A stretch of DNA of 64,000 nucleotides from Mesorhizobium sp. B2-1-8 (GTDB taxonomy: Bacteria > Pseudomonadota > Alphaproteobacteria > Rhizobiales > Rhizobiaceae). Positions 10,296 through 39,425 of the stretch are shown here, in pieces. Below the pieces are notes generated by a model. It had not been told where the DNA came from. It did not search any database and saw nothing but the letters and a program-made list of their open reading frames with translations. The stretch lies in the NCBI RefSeq assembly GCF_006442545.2, contig NZ_CP083952.1:558001-622000 (forward strand), read 5' to 3'. The position numbers were made by a program, and so were the translations under genes. Numbering within the stretch: the first letter of the stretch is position 1; each line of letters opens with the position of its first letter.

Positions 10296-10372
10296 GCGCC
10301 CGTAGCTCAGCTGGATAGAGCACCAGACTACGAATCTGGGGGTCAGGAGTTCGAATCTCTTCGGGCGCGCCA
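10296..10372 (+). tRNA. tRNA-Arg(ACG)
   Basis: Complete cloverleaf with encoded CCA: acceptor GCGCCCG (10296-10302) pairs with CGGGCGC (10362-10368); D arm GCTC/GAGC; anticodon stem CCAGA/TCTGG around CTACGAA with anticodon ACG; T arm AGGAG-TTCGAAT-CTCTT. Its 3' 46 bp recur exactly at 37718-37763, so the gene is the integration site of the adjacent island and was restored by it. Confidence 0.98.
10327..10372 (+). repeat. Island attachment site, left copy (att core)
   Basis: 46-bp direct repeat running from the anticodon loop of tRNA-Arg to its CCA end. It is identical to 37718-37763; homology stops abruptly on both sides. Insertion by a tyrosine integrase into a tRNA 3' end explains the duplication. 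Confidence 0.92.
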
Positions 10373-11582: not shown

Positions 11583-12488
11583 ATGGCTACCCCATCGACC
11601 GATGCACCTATTAGCCCGCTTCGCCAGCGCATGCAGCACGACATGCTGATGCGGGGCCTGGGCTCGCATACCCAGCAGGATTACGTTCGTCACGTCCGGC
11701 GCTTCGCCGCGTTCCTCGGCCGCTCGCCCGATGCGGCGTCGTCTGAGGACATCCGCCGCTTCCAGCTTCATCAGCATGAGAGTGGCGCCGGACCTGCGAC
11801 GATCAACGGCGCGGTCTCGGCGTTGCGGTTCCTGTTCCTGGTGACGCTGAAGCGGCGGGATCTGGCGCGTGCGCTGGTGGTCATGCGGTATCAGCGCAAG
11901 CTTCCCGACGTGCTGAGCGTGGAGGAAGCGGCGCGGCTGCTCGAAGCCGCACCTGGCATCAAGTACAAGGCCGCGCTCGGCGTCGCCTATGGCGCGGGCC
12001 TGCGCGTGTCCGAGGTCGCGCATCTCAAGGTCGACGATGTCGATAGCACGCGCATGCTGCTCCGCGTCGAGCAGGGCAAGGGCCGCAGGGACCGCAACGC
12101 GATGCTCTCGCCGCAGCTTCTGGAACTCCTGCGGCTGTGGTGGCGCGAAGGCAGGCGGCGCGGGGTGATGCTTCCGCATGGCTGGCTGTTCCCGGGCCGC
12201 AGTTGCACGGCGCCGATCTCGTCGCGGCAACTGCACCGCGCCGTCCAGGAGGCGGCCGAAGTCGCCGGCATCCGCAAGCGCGTCAGTCCGCACACTCTGC
12301 GTCACAGCTTCGCCACCCACTTACTCGAACAGGATGTCGACATCCGCGTCATCCAGGTGCTGCTCGGGCACAGCAAGCTCGATACGACCGCGCTCTACAC
12401 CAAGGTCTCGACCCGGACGATCCATGCGGTCGCCGGGCCGCTCGATCGGTTGATGGCGCTGATGGAAGGCAAGACGCCGCCCGGTTGA
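11583..12488 (+). CDS. Tyrosine recombinase of the IS91-type element
   Basis: A 301-residue XerC/D-like integrase. It has a SAM-like N-terminal domain (LTRG-like region about 20-100) and a catalytic domain with the first Arg in GAGLRVSEVAHLKVDD, the box HTLRHSFATHLLE, the second His in LLGHSKLDTT and the nucleophile Tyr in ALYTKVS. GAGAGGAA lies 9 bp before the ATG. It ends 3 bp before the transposase start, so the two are co-translated. Such paired genes occur in many rhizobial IS91-like elements; its exact role in transposition is unclear. Confidence 0.9.
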   Translation: MATPSTDAPISPLRQRMQHDMLMRGLGSHTQQDYVRHVRRFAAFLGRSPDAASSEDIRRFQLHQHESGAGPATINGAVSALRFLFLVTLKRRDLARALVVMRYQRKLPDVLSVEEAARLLEAAPGIKYKAALGVAYGAGLRVSEVAHLKVDDVDSTRMLLRVEQGKGRRDRNAMLSPQLLELLRLWWREGRRRGVMLPHGWLFPGRSCTAPISSRQLHRAVQEAAEVAGIRKRVSPHTLRHSFATHLLEQDVDIRVIQVLLGHSKLDTTALYTKVSTRTIHAVAGPLDRLMALMEGKTPPG

Positions 12489-12491
12489 GCC

Positions 12492-13685
12492 GTGCGCACC
12501 TCGATCGAGGTCGCCGACATCTTCCGTGCTGCTGGGCCACCCTACCGGGCCGCCCATGCAGGTCATCTGAGCCTTGGCCAGATCAAGGTCATGTCGGCGA
12601 TCGAGCACTGCCGCACCGCGGCCCTTGGCGGTCACGTCGAGGCCTGCGAGGACTGCGGCCAATGGCGGATCGCCTACAACTCCTGCCGCAACCGGCACTG
12701 TCCGAAGTGCCAAGGCGCAGCGGCGCGGACATGGTTGGCCGAGCGCCAGGCCGACCTGCTGCCGGTCGGCTACTTCCATGTCGTGTTCACGCTGCCCGCC
12801 GAGGTCGCCGACATCGCCTTCCACAACAAGGCGCTCGCCTACGACCTGCTGTTCAAGGCAGCGTCGGAGACGATGCTGACCATCGCGGCCGATGCGAAGC
12901 ACCTTGGAGCCAGGATCGGCATCACCGCCGTGCTCCACACCTGGGGCTCTGCGATGACTCACCATCCGCACGTGCACATGATCGTACCGGGGGGCGGCAT
13001 CGCGCCCGGCGGGAAGCGCTGGGTCTCGTCGCGGCCGGCCTTCCTGCTTCCGGTGCGCGTGCTCGGCAAGCTGTTCCGCCGGCTCTTCCTCACCCGGTTG
13101 ATGGCGCTGCACGACGCCGGACGGCTCAGCTTCTTCGGATCAATGGCGTACCTCACCGGGCGGCGAGCCTTCCTGCGGCACCTGTCGCCAGTCCGGAAGA
13201 AGCGCTGGGTGGTCTATGCCAAGGCACCGTTCGCGGGACCGGAGGCGGTGCTCGCATACCTGTCGCGCTATACTCACCGGGTCGCGATATCGAACAGCCG
13301 CCTGATCGCCTTCGACGAGAGCGGCGTCACCTTCCGCTACAAGAACTACCGCCGCGACGGCGCCGACCGCCAGCAGGTCATGACGCTCGCCACAGACGAG
13401 TTCATCCGCCGCTTCCTGCTCCACGTGTTGCCGCGAGGCTTTCACCGCATCCGCCACTACGGCCTGCTCGCCGGCTCCGCCCGCAAGGCCAGCCTCGCGC
13501 TCGCCCGCGAACTGCTGAGCGTCGCTGCGCCACCCGATGACGACACACCAGGCGAACCGGAGGACTTCCGCCCGTCATGCCCGTGCTGCGGCGGACGCAT
13601 GATCGTCGTCGAGGTACTCGAACGCTGGAGGCAGCCACGCGGACCGCCGGACGCTACCGCGACGAACCGGGAGACCGCTCTATGA
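12492..13685 (+). CDS. IS91-family transposase
   Basis: A 397-residue rolling-circle transposase with GTG start. The N-terminal zinc-binding segment has CEDCGQWR and CRNRHCPKCQ. The HUH-like motif is HHPHVHMIVPGG, and the Y2 region is AYLSRYTHRVAIS. These are the single-strand nicking and joining residues of the family. The length is normal and the frame intact, so the element may be active. It lies immediately after the recombinase gene. Confidence 0.93.
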   Translation: MRTSIEVADIFRAAGPPYRAAHAGHLSLGQIKVMSAIEHCRTAALGGHVEACEDCGQWRIAYNSCRNRHCPKCQGAAARTWLAERQADLLPVGYFHVVFTLPAEVADIAFHNKALAYDLLFKAASETMLTIAADAKHLGARIGITAVLHTWGSAMTHHPHVHMIVPGGGIAPGGKRWVSSRPAFLLPVRVLGKLFRRLFLTRLMALHDAGRLSFFGSMAYLTGRRAFLRHLSPVRKKRWVVYAKAPFAGPEAVLAYLSRYTHRVAISNSRLIAFDESGVTFRYKNYRRDGADRQQVMTLATDEFIRRFLLHVLPRGFHRIRHYGLLAGSARKASLALARELLSVAAPPDDDTPGEPEDFRPSCPCCGGRMIVVEVLERWRQPRGPPDATATNRETAL

Positions 13686-14091: not shown

Positions 14092-17000
14092 CTACCGACC
14101 GTCCTGCTTTTTCGAGCGCTTCTGACCGCGCCGGGTCATAATCGTGGCCATCGTTGTCGGACGGGAAACATCCAGCACGACGATCGCCAACTTGTCCTGT
14201 AAGCATTCCGGAATATCACTTCGAAGCATTGTTTCGAGTGCCTCTGCTGTGGACGGGAGTATGTCTCCGTCACTCCGGCGGGGGAGCGGAAATTCGATGC
14301 CGAACCAAAAGACGAGGTAGATCCCAAACCCATCGGCGCCCGCATCGGCCGCATAGCCGGCGAGTTGTTCCAAGGGTGCTGACCACAGCTCTCTATTGTA
14401 GTGACGTTTCGCCTCAATCGGCAGATTCTTACCAGCGTGGCTGAGGAGCAGGACGTCGGCCCTGGTATTTTCGCCACGCCGCGCCTCAGGAAGACTGGCG
14501 ACAATACCGTACCTCTCGAGGCGAATCCGCAGCAGTTCAAGGAGCCGATCGCGGTCCTCGTTCTCGATCTGCGGCGTGGTTGCAGCCCCGTCCTTGTCCG
14601 TGTTCCAGAACCGCTTCCACGGTGTTTCGCTGCCGGTTCGCAGCGTCGTCCTGTATCGATCGACCTCTTCGAGAACCGCCGCCGCGAGATCGGCCGGGCT
14701 AGCTGGAGCGCCGCCCGCAAGCGCTGTGACAAGGTCTCCCACTGGCGGCGCGACGTAAAGGTCATCCCGCATCATTCTGGCGTGTTCGGCGGCCGAGTGA
14801 GCGAGCTGCGGCCTCCAACTTGGATGAACGTCTGAAGCAAGCGATTTGAGTAAGTCGCCAGCATCGGAGTTTTTGGATGCGCTCAGCCGGCGGATCGCAG
14901 CCCTGACGATGCCACTGACCGTGTTCGAGTGACGCCAATCATCGTCTACGGATTCATGCGCTCTGGCAAGAACCGCAATCCGGAAGCGATCCAGTACATC
15001 GGGTTGCGGAGACCGTTCGTAGAATGCCTCAACAAGAGCCCCGTTCGGCCTCAACAAAATGCCCTGGACCTCCTCGTCGGACAGTTCAGCGGGAATAGTT
15101 GTCGGATCGAGAGCCAGTCCGACAAAACTCCAAATCTGCCGCTGTTCATGGCCGAGATTGGATCGTTGCACGGCTGATGACGCGAAGCGCGCCAGTTCTT
15201 CGGAAGCGAGTATCGATGCGCCGGCGACCAGCGCCTGCTCTAACGCGGGCATCGGCAGATTTGGCCGGTTCTTCAGCAGCTCCTGAAGGCAGGCAGCTAC
15301 CAACCCAAGCTCTCTGGCGCTCACAAGGTGGTGAAGGCCATCCAGATCGTCATCGCCAGCGTCGAGGGCGGCGTTCCAGTACCGCAACATTTGGGTGACA
15401 CCGTGTTCTCGATCTTGCGCAAGACGTTGAACGGCCCACGTGACAAGCGACGGCCCATCCTCGCCGCTGAAATAGCTCTGGCGCAGTCCGACGAGCGCGC
15501 AGACCAAAGGTGTCTCAGCAAGCTCAGCTTGCCGACCATGCAACAGGCCTTGATGCAGACCAGCCGCGACGACCCATTCTTGCGGATAGGCCCCGTTCGT
15601 TGCCTCGGCCCGGCCGAGGCTCTCAGCATCGACCTTGATGTCGGTGTGGATCGCGAATTGGATGAACCCTTCTGCAATGGCGGCTGCAATCTCGTCATTG
15701 GTGTATGTGGTGACCTTAGCGAGAGGGTTGTCCTTCTTTGATATCCGCGCATTGCGGTAGTGATCGGCAGCCCATTTCAAAGCACTGAACTCACTCTCGA
15801 CACCGCTGGCAATCGCGGCGAGCTTCGGGGTCAAGGCAGCGATATTGTTCTTCCGGGAAGCGTCAGTCTTGGCTTCTAGTTTGGCCTGCCGTTGCGCCTC
15901 CTGCTTTTTCCACTCGGCGTTCGGGTCGGAAAGAAGCGCTTTTATGAACTCCGCGTAGCCACCTTCCTCTTTGAGAATGGCGACGACCTTCTCGCGCCAT
16001 GTCGGCCAATGCGCCTCTCCGCGCGCAGCATATGCGGCAATCTCAAACAGTCGCCTGCGCCCTGACCCTTTCGCCTCGCTCCGCGCCAATGCAAAGAGCC
16101 CCTCGACCAGTGACGCCGAAGCAAGCCGGCGCATGGTCGAGATGTAGTGATTCACAACGACCCAAGGTCCGTCGGTGGGCTCCCCGGTTCGCGACATGGC
16201 GAGAAAGAAGTCGAGTTCCCGCCGGGGAGGGTCAATATCGACCCAGTTCTGCATCGCCTCGACCACAGTGCTGTCCAGCATGTCCCAGACGTGCTCCCGG
16301 GCATTGTTTATCCAGGTCCACAGGCGGTCGGCCCCGAGATCGGGACATCGATCAATCGCGGAGGCCAGTACCTGATCGATGAAGGAGCGGATTTGCGATT
16401 TCTGCCGCAGCGCGCTTGTCGTCCCCTGCGAAATCGGGACATCGAAAAGATCTTCGGGAGCCGAGCGACGCAGGGCAAGAGCAAGCGCGGTCAACGCTCC
16501 GCGATCTTCAACTTCATCATCGTCCGATGACGCGGGAAGTGCGCCGAAGTCGGCCAGAAGTTTTCGTATTTCGGATGAATTTATTGCGTCCGCCGGCATT
16601 CCTGCCAAAAGCCGGGCCCGTAGCACCACTTGGCTGGCGGTGTCGGGCTGACGCTCCAGTTCAACTAGCAAGGCCCGACGTGCGGCGGTTCGATCCTCGC
16701 TGGCCCGGACAATTACTTCCGAAGAGCGTTCCCGCATCCACAACGGCCGACCGGCATCGAGTACAATCGCAAGAAGTTTGCTTTGAATCCCCTTAACCGA
16801 AGGCCCCTCTGCGAGAGCCTGCAAGACCGTGGCCTGGAGGTGAGTGCGGACGTCTTTGTCCAGGATCGTCGCGAAATCCCCTGCCAAGTCTTCGCCGGCA
16901 AGACCACCGAGCACGGTCGCTCCCCTCTGCGAGGAAAGGACATAGGGATCGTCACGATCAAAATTGAGGAGAATCGCTTTTCGTCCCGAGGTGTCGAAAG

Positions 17001-18141
17001 CGGCGGCGTCGCCATAGGCCAACACGGTGGCGGCATCGCGATCGATGAGACGGAGTGCGCCCTGTGCGTCTCCCCGCCTGGAAAGATGGGCTGCGAACCA
17101 CGCATATAATCCACGAAGTTCGCTTGGTGCCTTGCGATCTCGGCCGGTGATGAGCGCGATTGCGCGCCGCAATGGGAAGGTCGGGTTGCTTCCCGCGCCC
17201 GTCACGACCCTGGCCAAGAAGCGTGCGGCGAGGAATTCCGCCACGGTGCGATGGAAGGCCTCGAAGATGTGACCTTCTCCACGAAACAATGCCGTGTCCA
17301 GCGTTGCATCCGCCAGCTTAGGCTCCAGATTGAGAGCATTCGTGGTCAAATACTCATTGGCGCCGCCCAAATGGGGCGGCGGCGCATTTGAGCGCCAGAG
17401 CGCCTTAGCGCCCGAAGCAAGGGCGTAGAAACACAGTCTTGAAGCGGCTTCGACGATTGCTTCAACGCTCGGCCTGGGATCTGTCGCCCGTTCAGAATCG
17501 TGCTCGTGGGCCAGCGCCCAGATGGCCTTTTCGAACAGTTCAAAACGACTGCTTGGCCATATACCCTCGGCAGCTACCACCGAATGAAGCAAGCGGAGAC
17601 TCAAAGGGCTCTCGAGAAAGGCTTCGGCGCCGCGATTGCGTGCCTCAATCACAAACGATCTCGGATCAGTGGCCCCAAGCGCCGTCAGCACGGCTCGGGC
17701 CTCGCCTTCATCCAAGGGCAGAAGACGCGCCACGGTGATCGCGCCATTGCTAGCCGCCGGTCGCATGGCTCCGAGATCGGCGGCCTCGCGCCAGTCCTCT
17801 GCCCGGCAGGTGAGGCGCCAACGAAGGTTCTTGTTTGCGGACAGGGTATTGGCGAGTTGCAGGAGCTTGTCCTTGCCGTTCTCACCCGTGCGATATTCGT
17901 CCAATGCATCAAGATAGAGCGTCTCGCCAACGGGTAGCGGGGCGCCGTTCATAGCATCTCGACAGGTAAAGACCTCGGCGCCCTCGGCCCCAGACTCGTA
18001 ACGCAGCGCCGTGGACTTGCCGAGGCCAGGTTCGCCGAGCAGAACGACAAACGGACGATCGCGCAGCGCGCTCAGGGCGCACTCGCTCGCTTCTGACTCG
18101 CTATGAACAAGGACCCTACGGTCCAGTGATGCAATTCTCAT
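14092..18141 (-). CDS. STAND/NACHT-like NTPase with C-terminal PD-(D/E)XK nuclease domain
   Basis: Very large protein, 1349 residues. The N-terminal P-loop NTPase has Walker A LLGEPGLGKST (about 34-44), Walker B LYLDALDEY with the extra acidic residues seen in NACHT proteins, and a sensor-like LTCRAEDW. A helical region of about 800 residues follows. The C-terminus (about 1205-1349) has an endonuclease-like signature: Asp about 1229 in RADVLLL, Glu and Lys in LPIEAKRHYN (about 1243 and 1245) and Gln in LEQLAGY. This suggests a single-gene immune switch in which the repeat region senses something and oligomerisation activates cleavage. Known Avs proteins put the nuclease first, so the order here is reversed. 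ATG at 18141 is preferred to GTG at 18147. Alone on its strand. Confidence 0.75.
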   Translation of the reverse strand: MRIASLDRRVLVHSESEASECALSALRDRPFVVLLGEPGLGKSTALRYESGAEGAEVFTCRDAMNGAPLPVGETLYLDALDEYRTGENGKDKLLQLANTLSANKNLRWRLTCRAEDWREAADLGAMRPAASNGAITVARLLPLDEGEARAVLTALGATDPRSFVIEARNRGAEAFLESPLSLRLLHSVVAAEGIWPSSRFELFEKAIWALAHEHDSERATDPRPSVEAIVEAASRLCFYALASGAKALWRSNAPPPHLGGANEYLTTNALNLEPKLADATLDTALFRGEGHIFEAFHRTVAEFLAARFLARVVTGAGSNPTFPLRRAIALITGRDRKAPSELRGLYAWFAAHLSRRGDAQGALRLIDRDAATVLAYGDAAAFDTSGRKAILLNFDRDDPYVLSSQRGATVLGGLAGEDLAGDFATILDKDVRTHLQATVLQALAEGPSVKGIQSKLLAIVLDAGRPLWMRERSSEVIVRASEDRTAARRALLVELERQPDTASQVVLRARLLAGMPADAINSSEIRKLLADFGALPASSDDDEVEDRGALTALALALRRSAPEDLFDVPISQGTTSALRQKSQIRSFIDQVLASAIDRCPDLGADRLWTWINNAREHVWDMLDSTVVEAMQNWVDIDPPRRELDFFLAMSRTGEPTDGPWVVVNHYISTMRRLASASLVEGLFALARSEAKGSGRRRLFEIAAYAARGEAHWPTWREKVVAILKEEGGYAEFIKALLSDPNAEWKKQEAQRQAKLEAKTDASRKNNIAALTPKLAAIASGVESEFSALKWAADHYRNARISKKDNPLAKVTTYTNDEIAAAIAEGFIQFAIHTDIKVDAESLGRAEATNGAYPQEWVVAAGLHQGLLHGRQAELAETPLVCALVGLRQSYFSGEDGPSLVTWAVQRLAQDREHGVTQMLRYWNAALDAGDDDLDGLHHLVSARELGLVAACLQELLKNRPNLPMPALEQALVAGASILASEELARFASSAVQRSNLGHEQRQIWSFVGLALDPTTIPAELSDEEVQGILLRPNGALVEAFYERSPQPDVLDRFRIAVLARAHESVDDDWRHSNTVSGIVRAAIRRLSASKNSDAGDLLKSLASDVHPSWRPQLAHSAAEHARMMRDDLYVAPPVGDLVTALAGGAPASPADLAAAVLEEVDRYRTTLRTGSETPWKRFWNTDKDGAATTPQIENEDRDRLLELLRIRLERYGIVASLPEARRGENTRADVLLLSHAGKNLPIEAKRHYNRELWSAPLEQLAGYAADAGADGFGIYLVFWFGIEFPLPRRSDGDILPSTAEALETMLRSDIPECLQDKLAIVVLDVSRPTTMATIMTRRGQKRSKKQDGR

Positions 18142-18419
18142 CAGCACAAAATACTGGCGCCGCGTGCCGGTGACAAAGAATAAAAGCGGTTCCTTGGCTG
18201 GCTAGCAGCAATCCCTGTGGATAGTCCCGTGCAGCTCACCGTTGTTTCTTCGACAGATTAGACGGTCGACGCCACCAAATCGATGACGTGGAGCGACTAA
18301 CGACGGGTTCAGCCTGGACCAAAGAACGGCGACTATCGCCTCACCGTGTCACAAACCGGTCTGTCTGGTATCGGGGGCCCCATTGCGGAAGTTTGAAGAC
18401 AGGCGGCAAACCCTGTGTT
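18142..18419. other. Intergenic stretch upstream of the STAND gene
   Basis: Holds the presumed promoter of the large minus-strand gene. No convincing -35/-10 pair, hairpin or coding frame was seen. Confidence 0.4.
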
Positions 18420-19123: not shown

Positions 19124-20136
19124 TTACCCCTTCGAGGCCATTGCGGCTTCATAGGGGCGCTGGTTCGACATCACCGCCCAGGCGATCCGGGCCAGTTTAT
19201 TGGCAAGCGCAACGACCACGACGTTGCGCTTGGCGCGCTTGAGCAGTGCCTGCAGCCAGGCGCCGATCTGGGTGTCCATTCGCGCCAGATATGGCAATGC
19301 CGCTCGCGCACCATGGATCAACAGCACGCGCATGTAGGTGCTCCCGCGCTTGCTGATCCCCGTCAGGCGCGGCTTGCCGCCGGTCGTGATCTGACGTGGA
19401 ACAAGCCCCAGCCAAGCAGCGAAGTCACGCCCCTTCGCAAACGCCGACACGTAGCCGACCGCTGCTGCCAGCGCCGTTGCGTTGAGCGCGCCAATGCCCG
19501 GAACACTGCGCAACAGACGAGCCCGTTGATCGCTCTTCGCGAGCGCTTCGAACTCTTGATCGAGCTGCTTGATCCGATGATCGAGCGCGTGCAATTCGTC
19601 GACCATGTCATCAACGAGTTGCCGCATCCTGGCGGTTAGGAGTGTGTTGTCCGGCAGGTTCTCGCGCAGCCACAGGTTCAGCTTTGGGCGCCCCTTGGCG
19701 ATGACGATGCCGCGGTCGAAAAGTACGCCGCGCAGTTGATTGATCAACGCCGTCCCGAGTGCCGACCAGCCGCTCGCGGGCACGGTGCAAAGTCTGCACA
19801 TCGAGTTGCTCTTCCGACTTGATCGGCGGGCCGTGTCGCCGCTTCGGCGATTGCCTCCGCATCGCGATCATCGTTCTTGTGCGATTTCACGTACGGCTTC
19901 ACATACTCGGGCGGCATCAGCCGAACCTCATGTCCGCCCATGACGAACTGACGCGCGAGGTGATGAGCACCGCAGCACGCCTCCATGCCAATGAGGCAGT
20001 GTGATTGCTTTTCGACGAATGCAGTAAGGGACGCACGGCGTATCCGACGACGCAGCACAACCGCTCCTTCACGGTCGAGGCCGACCAGGCTGCAGAGCGT
20101 CTTTCCAAGATCGATTCCGAGTACGACGATGTTCAT
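19124..20136 (-). pseudogene. IS1111-group transposase, frameshifted
   Basis: The N-terminal DEDD (RuvC-like) domain is visible from MNIVVLGIDLGKTLCSLVGL to KSHKNDDRDAEAIAEAATRP. The frame then shifts near 19830 to IKSEEQLDVQTLHRARERLV and again near 19790 to ALINQLRGVLFDRGI. The C-terminal transposase_20 domain follows with VPGIGALNATALAAAVG and FAAWLGLVPRQITTGGKPRL. About 340 residues in total, the normal size. AGGAGG precedes ATG 20136. Two frame breaks mean no full protein unless the sequence is in error. Confidence 0.85.
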
Positions 20137-20199
20137 TTTCCTTCCTCCTTCTGACACGGACTAGCAGTTTGGCTGGAACTGGAGGGCGGGCCATCCCAT

Positions 20200-21030
20200 A
20201 AGATAACGTGCGTTCTGTCGTTCCTGGTCAGCATAGGTCCTCATCCGCCGGAGCGGATCTCTTGTGTCAGATGGCGCCCGTCAGCGCGCCGGCGCCGTGC
20301 GTCTGAACTGCGCTCGAACCGCTCATCGACGCGCTCACAGAAGCTTGCGCGCCTTGCCATGGGCGCGGCGCGCGGCATCCGCCTGGCTTGCCGCCGGATC
20401 GCCGACCTAGAACGCGCCGTCGGTCCTGATCGCGACCATCATCACCGCCAGTTTGCACGCCACCGCGAAACAGGCTTTGCGATGGCAGGGGTGTTTGGCG
20501 ATCGCTTGGCGTCAAGCAACAGGGAGTTTTTCCGCAAGTAGGAACGGGCGTTGATGACAATGCGGACGAGCAGCCCGCCGGAGCGGCTCGCATGGCGCAG
20601 GCGGGCTGCTCGCGCACGGCTGTTGCGGATTGAGGTATTATGCATCGGCGGTTTCCACGTCGGTTTGGGGCCTTGAGCCGCTGCTTGACATGGCGAACCC
20701 GATAGCTCGGGCCGCCTGTCTGGATGACGTGACAATGATGCAAAACTCGATCGAGCATGGCCGCCGCCAACGGATCATCGATGGCCGTCATGAACCAAAG
20801 CGCAGTCACCGGCCCGACGCCGGGGATAGCGATGAAGCCCCGGCATGTCTCGTTGCGCGCGACTATCTTCATAACGGGATCGTGCAGCCGGCTATACTGT
20901 CGCCACAGCGTCCCACGTGCCGACGGCATGGCGTCAATAGCTCGCTCGATAGCGGATCGTCCGCTATGGCGCAGCGCACCGGCTGCTCGAAAGCCCCTGG
21001 CCCGAGCATGCTCAGACGGATATGAACGTT
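20200..21030 (-). pseudogene. IS110-family transposase remnant with inserted IstB piece
   Basis: Fragments in several frames on the minus strand. The order, reading 5' to 3', is SMLGPGAFEQPVRCAIADDP, then VARNETCRGFIAIPGVGPVT with MTAIDDP. An IstB-like C-terminal piece follows (LDRVLHHCHVIQTGGPSYRV, near 20640-20745), and then the IS110 tail (CHRKACFAVACKLAV). Stops and frame changes make it non-functional. It is the same transposase type as the remnant at 44.64-45.5 kb. Confidence 0.65.
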
Positions 21031-21248: not shown

Positions 21249-22064
21249 ATGACAAAGAAATTGCCGAGCCAATACCGGCAGAGGGCACGAGACCATCTCG
21301 CAGCGGCGGAACGACTCCTCCGCAGCGGAGATGACGACGTTACAAGATATGCCTGCATCGAATTGCGGCTCTGCGTGGAGGCCATCTGCTACGGAATGCT
21401 CTGTCTCTATCGCTCTGAATTGTCGAAAGGCGAGCTCGCGAAATGGCAACCTAAAAAGGTGCTCGATGAGCTGCTTGAAATCGATAAATACGCGACAACT
21501 CCACAACTACTAAGCGTCCAGGACCCAAAGACCGGGGAGTGGCACGACTTCGGCACACAGGACTACCGTTTTTCGGTAAAGTGGGCCAACAAGGCGCATA
21601 ACGCGCTTGGCAACGCGCTGCATGTGCCTACGATTGACCAGGTCGAGAAAGGGCAGGAGGCCACGCCTGCGATCTTTCGGGAACGCTGCCAAGAATATAT
21701 GCCGGAGCTTCGTAAGGTTCTGGATTCGCAGTCATGGCACCTTCACATGACCGGCCCGCGCTGGACGATGAGATGCGCTTGCGGATTTGAGATGCACCGG
21801 CGCGCCGAGCACATTGAAAAGGGCGTGATCGTCATCTGCAGTGAATGCGGCCGCGTCTACGATGTCGTACACGTAGGCGACGTACTCGACATCGAGTTGC
21901 GCAAACTCCGGTGGCAATGCAAAAAATGCGGGAAGGAGAACGGGACCCCCGAGCGCGATCTAGTTGAGAACATCATGACCGAATGCTTCGCGTGCGGCGA
22001 ACCAACGCAAGTCCGCAAACAGTGGATGGCCTATCAGCAGGAGCCGAACGGAACTGACGCCTAG
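21249..22064 (+). CDS. Zinc-ribbon hypothetical protein with helical N-terminal domain
   Basis: A 271-residue protein. Residues about 1-160 are helical (RARDHLAAAERLLRSGDDD, then a Cys-containing helix) and recall HEPN-like or abortive-infection-type domains, but no RX4H motif was found. The C-terminal third has Cys pairs in MRCACGF, ICSECG, WQCKKCG and TECFACG, which could form two zinc ribbons. It stands at the start of a same-strand pair with the broken HNH gene that follows after 48 bp. No family recognised; a nucleic-acid role is a guess from the zinc ribbons. Confidence 0.65.
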   Translation: MTKKLPSQYRQRARDHLAAAERLLRSGDDDVTRYACIELRLCVEAICYGMLCLYRSELSKGELAKWQPKKVLDELLEIDKYATTPQLLSVQDPKTGEWHDFGTQDYRFSVKWANKAHNALGNALHVPTIDQVEKGQEATPAIFRERCQEYMPELRKVLDSQSWHLHMTGPRWTMRCACGFEMHRRAEHIEKGVIVICSECGRVYDVVHVGDVLDIELRKLRWQCKKCGKENGTPERDLVENIMTECFACGEPTQVRKQWMAYQQEPNGTDA

Positions 22065-24034: not shown

Positions 24035-24751
24035 CTATTCTAGGAACCCGTGCAATAGGTCGCTGGTGTCAGGATCACGTTCGTCTGCAAGCAGCGTCAC
24101 TACCTCGGCCGCTGTGAGCTGGTCGGCGTCGTCGAGCAATTGCAGGGCATTGAAGCGCACACCGTCATCGAAATGGTCGTGCGCCAACTCTTTAAGTACA
24201 CGCGCCGTTGTGTCCCGAAAACGGGATAGGCCAGCAGCGAAAACCGCTAGCCATTCCTCATAAGGCAGGCCGGTTTCATCAAGGAATGGGTCAGCGTCGC
24301 CTGTCCGCAAGGCTTCTACGAGATGGCCGGAAACCTCCCTGAACTCATGATCGACAGCGCAAGCTTCTTCGACCAGCGGAATCCAACGCAGCCCCTGCGC
24401 TTCCGTCAGCGTGATCGTTAGATGACCGATGCTTTCGGCGGCAAGGTAATTCCTGGCAGCGCGCGAGAAGCCGGCGGTCGCCACCATGACGGCCGGAACC
24501 TCGCCCACGTCGCGCACCAGGGCGATCGTCGCACCCGCATGCACGCTGTCGATCGGGCGCTTGTGTCGCTTAGCTTCAATCAACAAAACGGGTTTCGGAT
24601 TCCCTGCCTCGAAGACGCATACATCGACCTGGCGGCGCGCCTTAGTCTTGCTCCCGCTCAGGCGGACGTTGTGCTTCACCGTGAAGCGGGGGAGCGGAAA
24701 TAGCGTGCGGAACCGCTCAAGAACCGCGTGCTCATATTCCTTCGGCGTCAT
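24035..24751 (-). CDS. Mrr-like restriction endonuclease
   Basis: About 238 residues from ATG 24751; an in-frame GTG at 24856 would add 35 residues. The N-terminal half is a PD-(D/E)XK domain of the Mrr_cat type: RRQVDVCVFEAG carries the Asp, and VLLIEAKRHKRPID the Glu-X-Lys. The C-terminal 100 residues are helical (LSRFRDTTARVLKELAHDHF, LLDDADQLTAAEVVTLLADE) and may sense or dimerise. Mrr enzymes cut modified DNA. No methyltransferase is adjacent, which fits a type IV or stand-alone nuclease. It is 130 bp from the repeat-protein gene on the same strand. Confidence 0.75.
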   Translation of the reverse strand: MTPKEYEHAVLERFRTLFPLPRFTVKHNVRLSGSKTKARRQVDVCVFEAGNPKPVLLIEAKRHKRPIDSVHAGATIALVRDVGEVPAVMVATAGFSRAARNYLAAESIGHLTITLTEAQGLRWIPLVEEACAVDHEFREVSGHLVEALRTGDADPFLDETGLPYEEWLAVFAAGLSRFRDTTARVLKELAHDHFDDGVRFNALQLLDDADQLTAAEVVTLLADERDPDTSDLLHGFLE

Positions 24752-24880
24752 TCTGACGACATGCCTATCCGGTCTGTTCTTTTGCTCAGCGTGGCATATT
24801 CGACCGGGAGCAACGAACCACCAGTCAGAGTCGAAGATCGTGCGCCGTCGTGCCACCGTTCGCGACCATTAGCTACATTG

Positions 24881-26521
24881 CTATTGAGGCGACATGCAGG
24901 AGGTGAGGAACTCTATCGTCGGGTTACGATGGTAGGGATTTGTCATACTTTTGGCTGAGTCTATTGCTTTGGCCCTTAACGATTTAGTCAAATACGGTCC
25001 AAGTCGAATGAGCGCAAAAGAGCGATTAGCGTCAACACTTATTGACATAGCGATTTCCAATGCTTCTCGCAGAACTTTATTTCTACGATCAAGAGGCAAA
25101 TGCGGCGCAAGCGACGCAAGCGCTTTAACGCGAGAAACCTTGCCAACAACAGCCGATGCTTCCGCTAATGCTTCGGGAAGCAGGTCGCTGGGTAGGTACG
25201 GCGCCATCTGAGAAAGGGCTTCAACACGGTCGCCCTCATCGCGTAGGGTTGCAACGGCAGTAAGCGCTATAGACATATCGCTCGGCGACAGGAACTCCGC
25301 CAACGACGCGAGGGCGCCAGCTCCATAATATTCATCGGCAATTGTCCTGGCGACGGCGACCGCGCTTGCAATCAGCACCGGCGCCAAATGCGGGACTAGC
25401 GACGCCAGCGCGCGCTGTCGATGGTATCCACTGTTAATTTTTTCGACATCGGCGAGTGCCGTAGCCATCAAGTGCGGCGGCAAATAAGGTGCCAAGGATA
25501 CAAGGCTAATAGTGCGCTTGTCTTCATCCACGATTGCGGCAGCGGCAGCGTAAGCTTCGGGAATCAATTCAGGCGGCAAATGCGGGGCGAGGGACGCGAG
25601 CATGCGAGCGCGGTAGCTCTCTCCTTGGATTCCAGTAGCGAGATAAAGCGCGTCGGCCATGCGTGTAGCCGGTAAACGCGGCACCAACGCGACCAAGGCG
25701 CGCACGCGACAGCTTTCGTCGGTGATCGAACTCGCGGCGGCAAACGCCTTTAGGGTTTGATCCCGCGGCAAATAGTGCGCCAGAGAGACTATCGCATCAG
25801 CGCGAGACAACTCGTCGCCGATTGCTAGAGCAGCAGCAAGTGAGTTGGAAACTGCTGCCTTCCGTGTTGAAAACGGCAGCGTTTCAGACCTAAGATAGGG
25901 CAGCAGCCTCGACAATGCGTCAGCGCGATGGAATTCATCGTCGATACTCACAGCTGCGGCTAAGGCGCTCCGCTTCACTTCATCAGGCAAACGCGGGTAC
26001 AATTCCGTAAGAGCACGAACGCGATACCGTCCGTCGCCTATCGATTGCGCAACCGTGATCGCCTGAGCGATAAGCATCTGCGGCAAATGTGGCACCAACG
26101 AAATTAAGGCCTCTGCGCGTAACGGTTCCCTACCGATCGAGGCTACCTCGGCGAGCGCCCCGGCAATTTGTTCTGGCGTTTCGAACACCGACGGATCGTA
26201 CCAGTGCCGACCAACAAGAGTCGGTTCAACCGGAATCTTTTCTCCCACATCGGCGGCATCCGCCAACATTCCATTTTCAACCACCTTTGGGTCAAATCGC
26301 GCGCCCCTGACTAGCGCATTTGTAAACTTGCAGCCGTCCAAAGCCGCGCCGCGAAAATCGTACCCCCTCAAATCGAGCCCAGAGAAGTCAACGTTACGGG
26401 CATTTGTGTTGCGGAAATGATCTCGATCAAGAATTCCAGCAATCTCTACGTAGCCAAGAAAGTCTGTTCGCTTGGCCTCTAGTACGCGTTTGATTGCGGC
26501 ATTGATCTCCTCTCGCTTCAT
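24881..26521 (-). CDS. Pentapeptide-repeat plus HEAT-like repeat protein
   Basis: A 546-residue protein. Residues about 35-80 form a short pentapeptide-repeat stretch (NARNVDFSGLDLRGYDFRGA and on). From about 125 to the end there are about 12 units of 32 residues with the pattern RxxALxxLxPxLPxxxxxxALxxAxxIxDe, for example RVRALVALVPRLPATRMADA. They should build an alpha-solenoid. Such repeats are seen C-terminal to effector or NTPase domains in other bacteria, but no catalytic domain is present here. Its ATG overlaps the stop of the upstream HTH gene by 4 bp (ATGA), so both are coupled. The solenoid probably binds a protein or ligand. Confidence 0.75.
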   Translation of the reverse strand: MKREEINAAIKRVLEAKRTDFLGYVEIAGILDRDHFRNTNARNVDFSGLDLRGYDFRGAALDGCKFTNALVRGARFDPKVVENGMLADAADVGEKIPVEPTLVGRHWYDPSVFETPEQIAGALAEVASIGREPLRAEALISLVPHLPQMLIAQAITVAQSIGDGRYRVRALTELYPRLPDEVKRSALAAAVSIDDEFHRADALSRLLPYLRSETLPFSTRKAAVSNSLAAALAIGDELSRADAIVSLAHYLPRDQTLKAFAAASSITDESCRVRALVALVPRLPATRMADALYLATGIQGESYRARMLASLAPHLPPELIPEAYAAAAAIVDEDKRTISLVSLAPYLPPHLMATALADVEKINSGYHRQRALASLVPHLAPVLIASAVAVARTIADEYYGAGALASLAEFLSPSDMSIALTAVATLRDEGDRVEALSQMAPYLPSDLLPEALAEASAVVGKVSRVKALASLAPHLPLDRRNKVLREALEIAMSISVDANRSFALIRLGPYLTKSLRAKAIDSAKSMTNPYHRNPTIEFLTSCMSPQ

Positions 26522-27456
26522 GAAAGATCACTGCCCACGACAGTTAATTTCTGCACGCCCAAGATGATCCACCCATCATCGCTGTCGTTGGAGAAATCTT
26601 CATCCAGCTTTATTAACATTGCTTGCAGAGCTCCAAGCACCGCCGCACGTGCTGCATCGTCCATATCGTCGCCATTTCGGTCTAGGATAACTGCGTCGCA
26701 TTGCGCAACTGCGAGGTCCGCCCTGACCGTTTCGCCGGGGGCCACACCGTCAAGAGAACAAGCTGGCGACGTCAGGTATTCGCCCTCAAGTATCTTGCCC
26801 TTTGCCTTGAAGATAATCTCAGGATCGTCGGGTGCACCCCAACCGGTGACCAAGGCGTCGCGAACTGCCACCTGGTTATCTTCGCCGAACAGATTCTTGA
26901 ATTTTGCTAACGTTGCTCCAGCCACTTTGAGGCGGAGGCGAGCCACGCTGAAGCCATACCGGTAAGACAAATGGGGAGCTTGTTTCATAACGACTTTGCA
27001 AGACAACTCAATAGGCCGATCAGGCGGTATCAACTGTAGGTCTGGGCCTTGTACGACAAATGTCGCGAGGTTGGTGTTCCTGTGAACTGCTGCCGGGCAG
27101 TTAATCTTGCGGGGAACGGCCTCGTCGCGTCCTTGCCGTGCGAGAAAGTACCGACGAAAAGCAGGGATTGAATCTCGACCCTTGTAGTTCCCGGAGGACG
27201 CGGCGCGTTCTGAATTCGAAACCGTCGAATCTCGCCAATAGGGGTTTTTTGGATCTAAATTTGCATAAGCGGTGATTTTCGTTTCCAGTTGCCAAGTCAG
27301 CTGTTCTTTCTTCACCGCCTTTGTCAGCGTTGACGGATGTACTTCCATCGCAAGCGCCAGATGCCTCAAACTTTTTCGTGATAAACCAAGCTTCTCCTCT
27401 GCGATCATGAGAAGCTTTTCCCTAAGCTGGTGATGAACTAGGCCTGCTGCGGACAT
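26518..27456 (-). CDS. HTH-domain protein coupled to the repeat protein
   Basis: A 312-residue protein. The first 60 residues contain a helix-turn-helix (LSRKSLRHLALAMEVHPSTL then TKAVKKEQLTW). A basic linker follows, then a C-terminal domain of beta character (about 110-312) with YRYGFSVARLRLKVAGATLA and an acidic end. GAGGAG upstream supports ATG 27456. The last 4 bp overlap the repeat-protein gene. It may be the regulator or the DNA-binding arm of a two-component system; I do not recognise the C-terminal family. Confidence 0.7.
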   Translation of the reverse strand: MSAAGLVHHQLREKLLMIAEEKLGLSRKSLRHLALAMEVHPSTLTKAVKKEQLTWQLETKITAYANLDPKNPYWRDSTVSNSERAASSGNYKGRDSIPAFRRYFLARQGRDEAVPRKINCPAAVHRNTNLATFVVQGPDLQLIPPDRPIELSCKVVMKQAPHLSYRYGFSVARLRLKVAGATLAKFKNLFGEDNQVAVRDALVTGWGAPDDPEIIFKAKGKILEGEYLTSPACSLDGVAPGETVRADLAVAQCDAVILDRNGDDMDDAARAAVLGALQAMLIKLDEDFSNDSDDGWIILGVQKLTVVGSDLS

Positions 27457-27864: not shown

Positions 27865-28845
27865 TCAGATCAATATCCGTTCCACCTCGTCAAGCGTCAC
27901 GTCATCGCTGCGTCGGTCGTAGAGCTGCGTCGTCGTGGTCGTGGCATGGTTCGCCATGTCGCGCGCCTTCTCAAGCGAGCCACCATTCTTGAGATATGCC
28001 GTGATGCCGGTGCCGCGCATGCTGTGGTTGCCGATCTTCCTATCGCCGAGCTTCGCCTCCTTCGCCCGTCTACGCATCATCTGGTAGGCGGCAGGCTGTG
28101 TAATGGCCTTTCCGATCCTGATCCATGTAGCGTCGTCGCCAGCCATCCGCCGCGGACAGCTTGGAAACAATGCGGCCTTGGGATCATCGCGGAGCCCACT
28201 GACCTCAACCCAGGCGTCGAGCGCTGCTTCAAGCGTGTGGTGGCAGGGCATTTCATGCTCCTTGCCGCCCTTTTCGTGCAACCGCACCCACAGCCGCCGC
28301 TGACGTTGGAAGACGTCACCTACCTTCATAGCCTCACATGCCCCGATGCGCGAGAACGCGAAGATCATCAGAGCAATGAGCGCTCGATCGCGAATGCCAA
28401 GAAGCGTGCTGGTATCGATGCTGTCCAGCAACGCGCGTGCCTCGTCTGCATCGAGGATCGGCGTCTTGCCGCGCCGTTGCGAATGCCGCGGCGGCCGCAC
28501 CGACAAGGCGGGATTGGCTGGAATGATCTGCCCAGTGACCAGCCAATCGAACAGCCGGCGTATTGCCGACACATGCCGCTTCGCTGTCGGCGCCGCGTGG
28601 CTTTTCGTCAGCAGCTCGACGTAGGTGGCGACATGCAGCGTATGAATCTCGCCAATGTCGCGCACACCCTGCGCCTGGCACCAATCCAGGAACTGGCCGA
28701 CATCCTTGCTGTAGGCACGGCGGGTGTTCGGATTGCGGATATGGGCGGTGAAGAACTCCAGGAACCGCCAACGGGCACGCTCGCCGGCCGCCTCCACCAA
28801 AGCGGGAAGGGAATGTGACCTAGCGATTAGGACGAGTTGATCCAC
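27865..28845 (-). CDS. XerC/D-like tyrosine recombinase
   Basis: A 326-residue integrase. A SAM-like N-terminal domain (NPNTRRAYSKDVGQFLDW) is followed by the catalytic domain: Arg in FSRIGACEAMKVGDV, the box NHSMRGTGITAYL, His in MANHATTTTT and Tyr in QLYDRRSDD. The GTG start lies 9 bp after the stop of the tail-collar-like gene, so the two are one operon. It is well inside the island, far from both att sites, so it probably belongs to a nested element or to the module around it rather than to island integration. Confidence 0.88.
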   Translation of the reverse strand: MDQLVLIARSHSLPALVEAAGERARWRFLEFFTAHIRNPNTRRAYSKDVGQFLDWCQAQGVRDIGEIHTLHVATYVELLTKSHAAPTAKRHVSAIRRLFDWLVTGQIIPANPALSVRPPRHSQRRGKTPILDADEARALLDSIDTSTLLGIRDRALIALMIFAFSRIGACEAMKVGDVFQRQRRLWVRLHEKGGKEHEMPCHHTLEAALDAWVEVSGLRDDPKAALFPSCPRRMAGDDATWIRIGKAITQPAAYQMMRRRAKEAKLGDRKIGNHSMRGTGITAYLKNGGSLEKARDMANHATTTTTQLYDRRSDDVTLDEVERILI

Positions 28846-37717: not shown

Positions 37718-37763
37718 ACTACGAATCTGGGGGTCAGGAGTTCGAATCTCTTCGGGCGCGCCA
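37718..37763 (+). repeat. Island attachment site, right copy (att core)
   Basis: Perfect 46-bp copy of the tRNA-Arg 3' end (10327-10372). It has no 5' half, so it is not a functional tRNA. Its minus strand also encodes the last residues and stop of the serine recombinase. Confidence 0.92.
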
Positions 37764-39404
37764 CTTCAGTACAGAACTGCGAACTCCCGACACCGCCGTT
37801 TCTTCGCCTGACGCCGCGACCAGGGTTTGGAGCAATTCGGATTTTGATCCGATGATTCTGACTTCCTTCTCGGCCACTTCGATCCGCTGCGCCAACGCTC
37901 GCAGGTGATCGCGGCGGTAGCCGCCACGCGGATCGTGCATGCGCTCACGAGCGCCGCGGGCGAATGTGGTGACCATTTCGGAAGTAATCGGCTGGTTGCC
38001 GGTGCTGTCGAACGAAGCCTCGATGCGCTTTGCGTCTGTCGTGGCTTGTTCCTTGATCGCCTTGAGACCCGCCATGCGATCCTTGAGAGCCGGATCGTTG
38101 ACGTCTGTGACGCCAGCTTCGATCGCGTCATAGAGTCTATTGAGGCGCTGGTCGGTCTCGGTGATCTTCCGCTTCAGTTCGCCCAAGTGCTCGCGGCGGC
38201 GCTCAGTGCGTTCCTGCCTCCGACCCAGGACAGCCTCAAGAATGGCGGTGAGCCGTTCTGGCTTGAGAAGCCGCTTCTCCAGGTGATTGGCAACCAGGTC
38301 GTCCAGAAAGGCCATGGGGATTGATTTGCCCTGGCAACCTGCCTTGCCCTGGCGGGCGCGTGTCGAGCAGGTGTAGTAACGATACATAGTGCCAGTGCAG
38401 CCTTTGCCGGTCCTGAGCGTCATGGCTCCTCCGCACTTGGCGCAAAAGCAAATACCGGTAAGGAGAACGGGGCTTGTGGTGACCCTGGGTGGCGTCACCA
38501 TGGGATGGCGAGACTTCAGACGCGCCTGCACGGCATCGAAGGTCTTGCGCTCGATGATTGCCGGCACCGCCATGACGACAACCTCGTCGTCCGGCTTCTT
38601 TGCCCTGCCCTTGAAGCTGCGCGTATTGAAGCGGTGTTCGCCAATATAGGTGGTTCGGGTTAGGACGGCGTGGATTTGCGCCAGTCCCCAGAGACCGCCG
38701 TCTCGTGTGAACAACCGGTTCTCATTCAGATGGCAGGCGATCGATTTGACGCCCATTGGTCCTGAGATTCCATTGCCCTGAAGAAACAGGCGGTAGATCA
38801 ATCGGACGGACTCGGCGTGCAGCGGATCGACCTCCAGCTTCTTCTTGGTCTTCGATCCGCGCTGCTCTGCCGCAACGATCCGGTAGCCAATCGGAGGCAA
38901 CGCCCCATTCCAGAAGCCCTGCCTGGCATTCTCGTTCATGGCGCGGAGCACATGCTTGGCGTTCTCTTTCGACTGGTACTCATCGAAGAGAGCCATGATC
39001 TGGCGCATCATGACATGCATTGGATCGTCACCCATCTCCTGGGTAATCGACACAAGTCTTACGCCGTTCTTGGCGAGCCGCCTGACATGGAACTCAAGCT
39101 CGAAGTGATCGCGGAAGAATCGGCTGAAGGAATGAACGACCACGACATCGAAAGGGGAAGGCTTTGATGTGCCTTCCTCGATCATGCGCTGGAACTCTGG
39201 ACGCTTGTCACTGGTGGCTGATGCGCCTGCCTCGACAAAGGTCTCGACCAGCTCATAGCCACGAGAGGCGCAGTAAGCCTCACCTTGGCGCCTCTGGTCG
39301 GGAATCGAGACATCGTGCTCGGCCTGGCGGGCCGTCGATACGCGAAGGTAGAGGACTGCCCGCGATCCCTTTGCAGACTGCTGCTGTTGTGAAGCCATCT
39401 TCAT
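37734..39404 (-). CDS. Large serine recombinase
   Basis: About 556 residues. The resolvase domain has the nucleophile Ser in VLYLRVSTARQAEHDVSIPD. A recombinase domain follows (GALPPIGYRIVAAEQRG region), then a zinc ribbon (CFCAKCGGAMTLRTGKGC, with CSTRARQGKAGC) and a coiled-coil (about 400-470). It can integrate or excise DNA at short sites. The last residues WRARRDSNS are read from the tRNA-Arg att repeat. ATG 39404 has GGGAGA upstream. A small gene precedes it on the same strand. Confidence 0.92.
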   Translation of the reverse strand: MKMASQQQQSAKGSRAVLYLRVSTARQAEHDVSIPDQRRQGEAYCASRGYELVETFVEAGASATSDKRPEFQRMIEEGTSKPSPFDVVVVHSFSRFFRDHFELEFHVRRLAKNGVRLVSITQEMGDDPMHVMMRQIMALFDEYQSKENAKHVLRAMNENARQGFWNGALPPIGYRIVAAEQRGSKTKKKLEVDPLHAESVRLIYRLFLQGNGISGPMGVKSIACHLNENRLFTRDGGLWGLAQIHAVLTRTTYIGEHRFNTRSFKGRAKKPDDEVVVMAVPAIIERKTFDAVQARLKSRHPMVTPPRVTTSPVLLTGICFCAKCGGAMTLRTGKGCTGTMYRYYTCSTRARQGKAGCQGKSIPMAFLDDLVANHLEKRLLKPERLTAILEAVLGRRQERTERRREHLGELKRKITETDQRLNRLYDAIEAGVTDVNDPALKDRMAGLKAIKEQATTDAKRIEASFDSTGNQPITSEMVTTFARGARERMHDPRGGYRRDHLRALAQRIEVAEKEVRIIGSKSELLQTLVAASGEETAVSGVRSSVLKWRARRDSNS

Positions 39405-39425
39405 AAGCACTGTCTCCCTGTCATT

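Follow-up and report, generated by a model that had tools for sequence, protein, structure and literature searches.

A 64,000-nucleotide stretch of the Mesorhizobium sp. B2-1-8 genome (the window; contig NZ_CP083952.1, positions 558,001 to 622,000) carries on its minus strand the gene for a protein of 1349 amino acids, which is probably an EruA-type STAND sensor acting alone against phages, with a NACHT switch at its beginning, a HEAT/ARM-like middle and a PD-(D/E)XK nuclease at its end. These three parts, their order, the conservation of their motifs, the relationship to EruA and the setting of the gene in an island are supported by the sequence together with predicted models. An earlier reading of the same DNA from its letters alone (the sequence-only reading), which named no strand, had proposed a new single-gene defence system, possibly a different immune family. 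This proposal falls, and a new family was rejected, because the NCBIfam model NF058535 (NACHT domain-containing antiphage protein EruA) matches the protein from end to end with 924.6 bits (E 1.4e-277).

How near the protein stands to EruA itself can be judged from the curated equivalog cut-offs, which are 1000 bits for NF058535 and 1200 bits for NF058534, the model of HyoA. Residues 12-1328 align with positions 3-1318 of the 1318 positions of the EruA model, the score remaining 75 bits short of the cut-off, and the HyoA model yields 54.2 bits over residues 131-831 only, below its own cut-off. Among seven homologues scanned with NF058535, P0004, which is 87% identical to the window protein, passes at 1003.2 bits, and the other six score 806-945. 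Since the curated cut-off was tested and is not reached, we call the protein EruA-like, on sequence comparison a border member of the EruA family and not EruA proper. The sequence-only reading had conceded that its claim of novelty would be undone if a named defence family of this layout were clearly matched; such a match has essentially been found, complete in extent and passing the cut-off in the close orthologue, if not in the protein itself.

The same placement emerges from a tree of 40 rows, built by a quick method with 22 homologues chosen from the 120 listed (the broken L037, L041 and L027 being left out), in which the window clade (24 rows, support 100) and 12 other EruA rows are separated from four HyoA-like rows with a support of 100 in the Shimodaira-Hasegawa-like approximate likelihood ratio test (SH-aLRT). 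Ten of these 12 rows score over the EruA cut-off, so that the window clade groups with members that pass it and apart from HyoA. The HyoA-like label was given to the four rows ahead of their scoring with the HyoA model, and the scoring bore it out: the four intact genes encode 1440-1566 amino acids, three passing the HyoA cut-off and one scoring 1126.6 bits. Both a P-loop and a C-terminal D...ExK...Q signature occur in all 13 EruA-side rows from the same bacterial order and in four of five HyoA-like loci, the fifth locus being broken, and two curated antiphage families thus have the nuclease-last layout already.

That the interval is a real gene, with clear selection on the protein, is indicated by comparison with the Mesorhizobium camelthorni orthologue, where the differences at the three codon positions number 115, 79 and 278 over 1351 codons, a distribution which argues against a chance frame. 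The open reading frame can begin at a GTG or at an ATG two codons further in; the five closest homologues among the matches listed are 1348-1349 amino acids long, which makes the ATG the likely start. Counted from this ATG, the residue numbers Asp1229 and Lys1245 given in the sequence-only reading are exact, and its description of the protein (a NACHT-like P-loop at the N-terminus, some 800 helical residues and a D...ExK...Q nuclease signature at the end) agrees with two AlphaFold models and with the conservation of motifs, which together support both ends of the protein. Conservation was counted over 112 sequences, a set made up of the query and those listed homologues (111 of 120) that remained once nine of at most 1200 amino acids had been set aside; the search gave 199 matches in total, 79 of them unlisted.

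In this set the glycine and lysine of Walker A are kept in 96% of the sequences and the acidic residues of Walker B in 99%. By structure comparison the predicted fold most resembles NLR proteins, which places the module in the NACHT clade of the STAND NTPases; the Pfam NACHT family was not reported by the sequence scan, and the assignment is by fold. We take the TCRAEDW motif to occupy a sensor-1-like position, and the motif FEAFHRTVAEFL presumably corresponds to the winged-helix histidine motif of NACHT proteins, which it resembles. Ahead of the P-loop strand (residue 33 in GTG numbering) the model contains only two short strands and a short helix, and no effector domain was found before the NACHT module. 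The helical region that follows, about 830 residues in the model, is on average the least conserved part of the protein and is presumed to serve as sensor and arm.

The C-terminal domain is supported as a predicted PD-(D/E)XK nuclease. Its motif comprises D1229, E1243-x-K1245, Q1259 and Y1263; all 112 sequences retain the D, E, K and Q, and all 18 rows of a far more diverse set the E, K and Q. Model and alignments agree on an alpha-beta-beta-beta-alpha-beta core that carries the D and the E-x-K on strands, the topology of the superfamily. The sequence-only reading would have been contradicted by a prediction lacking a PD-(D/E)XK fold, and this is not what the model shows, although the matches of fold and profile are moderate, to a solved repair endonuclease and to the profile of the DNA-repair family MmcB-like, respectively. 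For the C-terminal piece of the window protein itself no Pfam family over its cut-off and no sequence match in the PDB were reported. Some homologues (P0017, P0021, P0030 and others) carry a precomputed assignment to the Pfam family PF28130, which rescanning did not report.

A nuclease-like domain in this place could, in principle, be understood in other ways, and here the surroundings of the relatives are informative. Across 24 loci every other gene family is found in three at most, so that the EruA-like protein probably acts alone, and an operon with a conserved partner was rejected. If the domain were only a nucleic-acid-binding sensor, the true output being oligomerisation or something encoded elsewhere, its C-terminal place, the usual sensor position according to the available part of PMC12169576, and the empty N-terminus would be accounted for; we nevertheless hold this to be highly improbable, as the invariance of the D, E, K and Q fits catalysis and the loci offer no conserved partner as a possible output. 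Alternatively, the protein could act in the manner of a large NTP-dependent restriction enzyme, the nuclease end recognising foreign DNA directly and the NACHT module gating cleavage, such that the C-terminal domain is a targeting and cutting head and not a suicide effector. The likeness to repair proteins would suit this, as would a nuclease occupying the usual sensor position of bacterial NACHT proteins (PMC12169576, in the part available), but a conserved methyltransferase or other self-protection partner is missing from the loci, the long and variable helical region is better suited to protein sensing, and the NTPase is most like that of NLR proteins; we regard this alternative as unlikely, if worth bearing in mind.

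For the EruA-type sensor we would envisage a resting protein that is an ADP-bound monomer, whose helical region may bind a phage product or a phage-induced change. Exchange of ADP for ATP would then open the NACHT module, and oligomerisation would gather the C-terminal nuclease domains, which could cut DNA of the phage, the host or both. Such cutting would end phage production, probably with the infected cell lost or arrested.

The neighbourhood of the relatives, judged by family matches, is rich in defence genes. Open reading frames of 170-1299 amino acids within 6 kb, called by a simple script, numbered 179, and all were scanned: 102 PADLOC families were found among 70 frames and 125 among 109, compared with 14 among 124 displaced control frames, where the counts are of families and not of systems, many PADLOC models overlap, and the control itself has some defence genes. 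The control consists of 14 regions taken from 13 genomes, all of the second set and none of the first, and four of these regions lie less than about 40 kb from an EruA gene, the nearest at about 13 kb. Near 23 relatives the families include HamA and HamB (which we take to be the Hachiman system), Argonaute, AbiE, SngABC, BREX (BrxH), type I restriction, type IV restriction and Dsr2, these names being drawn from the first 25 families of each of two larger tables.

The relatives themselves appear widespread but patchy in the phylum of the window. Counting matches of at least 790 bits over nearly the whole EruA model, with the window gene included each time and the draws overlapping, a near full-length match is present in 6 of 99 genomes of the genus (five over the cut-off, with one further genome carrying the gene in three pieces), in 15 of 397 of the order (12 over the cut-off, two interrupted) and in 18 of 398 of the phylum (nine over the cut-off, one interrupted); in a 19th genome of the phylum draw the match is whole-length and scores 503 bits. 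In several relatives (L009, L010, L037, L041 and G814:C278) the gene is cut or has fallen apart into pieces or frames. The genome of the window also contains a second, weak EruA match (G000:C1:4452248-4452730; 25.8 bits, positions 55-216) inside an open frame of 1008 amino acids, which is perhaps another STAND-type protein. Relatives occur in 27 of 72,556 plasmid records, 10 of them covering at least 80%, and in none of 50,697 phage records.

The gene most likely sits in an integrated island, since an exact second copy of 46 bp from the 3' part of a tRNA-Arg gene lies 27.4 kb away, and since the copy numbers of this repeat across the genus suggest the same: among 41 genomes searched, the 46-mer occurs once in 34 and twice in two (that of the window and G766), and five lack it. 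The last 27 bases of the tRNA-Arg occur twice in the whole genome. The mobile island of the sequence-only reading is in this way borne out. In this context a role other than defence against phages, for example in plasmid exclusion or island maintenance, has to be considered: the gene has insertion-sequence genes and remnants around it on a tRNA-borne island, 15 of the 27 plasmids with relatives are predicted to be conjugative, and the antiphage role is assigned here by sequence comparison. We give this possibility scarcely any credence, given that the nearest curated family bears the name of an antiphage protein and that the relatives' neighbourhoods exceed the control in anti-phage families.

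Accompanying features are listed with those of the gene in the table. On one side of the EruA-like gene a Xer-like recombinase and an IS91-family transposase form a two-gene mobile unit, and on the other side lie decayed insertion sequences. A set of three adjoining genes further along may constitute a second nuclease-bearing module, one without a PADLOC match. The end of the serine recombinase gene overlaps the right copy of the repeat.

Table. Position of the EruA-like gene, its parts and the accompanying features in the window (residues in ATG numbering)
Feature	Position	Strand	Remark
EruA-like gene	14092..18141	minus	1349 amino acids from ATG at 18141
EruA-like gene, longer start	14092..18147	minus	1351 amino acids from GTG at 18147
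NACHT-type STAND NTPase module	17128..18141	minus	up to about residue 338
Walker A, GEPGLGKS	18013..18036	minus	residues 36-43; motif conservation
Walker B, LYLDALDE	17896..17919	minus	residues 75-82; motif conservation
TCRAEDW motif	17791..17811	minus	residues 111-117; end of a later strand
FEAFHRTVAEFL motif in NACHT module	17230..17265	minus	H kept in 112/112 sequences
Helical repeat, HEAT/ARM-like	14638..17127	minus	model secondary structure; HEAT-type structural matches weak
PD-(D/E)XK nuclease-like domain	14164..14565	minus	C-terminal
Predicted catalytic Asp1229	14455..14457	minus	conservation
E1243-A-K1245	14407..14415	minus	conservation
Gln1259	14365..14367	minus	in the helix that follows; conservation, model
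tRNA-Arg (ACG)	10296..10372	plus	presumed integration target
46-bp direct repeat, left copy (att-like)	10327..10372	plus	in 3' part of tRNA-Arg
46-bp direct repeat, right copy	37718..37763	plus	island between the copies
Xer-like recombinase, directly followed by IS91-family transposase	11583-13685	plus	recombinase below the models' cut-offs; transposase over cut-off
IS110-type transposase pieces and end of IstB gene	19124-20929	minus	IS110 pieces in two overlapping frames
271-amino-acid protein	21249-22064	plus	zinc-ribbon-like C-terminus; Zn_ribbon_CSL, sub-threshold
Three adjoining genes: Mrr_cat-type endonuclease, pentapeptide + repeat protein, unassigned protein	24035-27456	minus	endonuclease over Pfam cut-off
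Second tyrosine recombinase, Xer-like	27865-28845	minus	inside island; 105.7 bits, below cut-off
Large serine recombinase	37734-39410	minus	best NCBIfam CcrB, 140.5 bits (cut-off 900)

Among known systems, Avs1-5 (AVAST) share with the window protein a STAND NTPase and a long helical region, and Avs4 and AVAST5 are among the structural matches. Avs proteins carry the effector at the N-terminus, in several cases presumably a nuclease of the PD-(D/E)XK superfamily, whereas the window protein has no domain before the NACHT module and its nuclease-like domain at the C-terminus; the opposite order remarked upon in the sequence-only reading is supported. Membership of Avs was rejected, as there is no effector N-terminal to the STAND module and no PADLOC family was matched by the protein up to an E-value of 0.1. 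In the available part of PMC12169576 bacterial NACHT proteins, and STAND proteins in general, are said to run from effector through the NACHT or STAND module to sensor, and to this effector-first rule, as worded there, the inverted order is an exception. bNACHT25 and bNACHT32 (clade 6) of the same source likewise unite NACHT and a PD-(D/E)XK DNase in one protein, but there the DNase is N-terminal. A precedent for a predicted effector C-terminal to NACHT or another STAND module is provided, in the accessible part of PMC8195603, by STAND NTPases with a C-terminal glycosyltransferase-4 domain, which is not a nuclease. The part of PMC7159879 at hand holds nothing on a NACHT-first, nuclease-last order. 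The open-licence PMC literature yielded no publication describing EruA in an antiphage role, and in the available text of the DefensePredictor paper (PMC13092281) the word EruA is absent and the NACHT systems are other ones.

EruA itself aligns with the window protein from end to end, is of similar length and has its NACHT-first, nuclease-last order, and 10 relatives over the cut-off keep its motifs; the differences, besides the score, are the long stem of the window clade in the tree and the identity of 24-34% (local BLAST) to EruA genes of the same order outside that clade. HyoA shares the middle of the protein, and its relatives the motifs of both ends, but they are longer and form a separate clade. 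An unnamed island gene can now be placed beside a curated anti-phage family, and the chances seem to us evenly divided that EruA, HyoA and the window clade constitute a branch of bacterial NLR-like immunity built back to front, with the NACHT module N-terminal and the nuclease at the end of the sensor arm. This inverted geometry, common to EruA and HyoA, is the part worth biochemical study; if the proposal is true, NACHT oligomerisation would gather the nucleases at the ends of the arms and not at the hub, in an arrangement unlike that of Avs and of inflammasomes.
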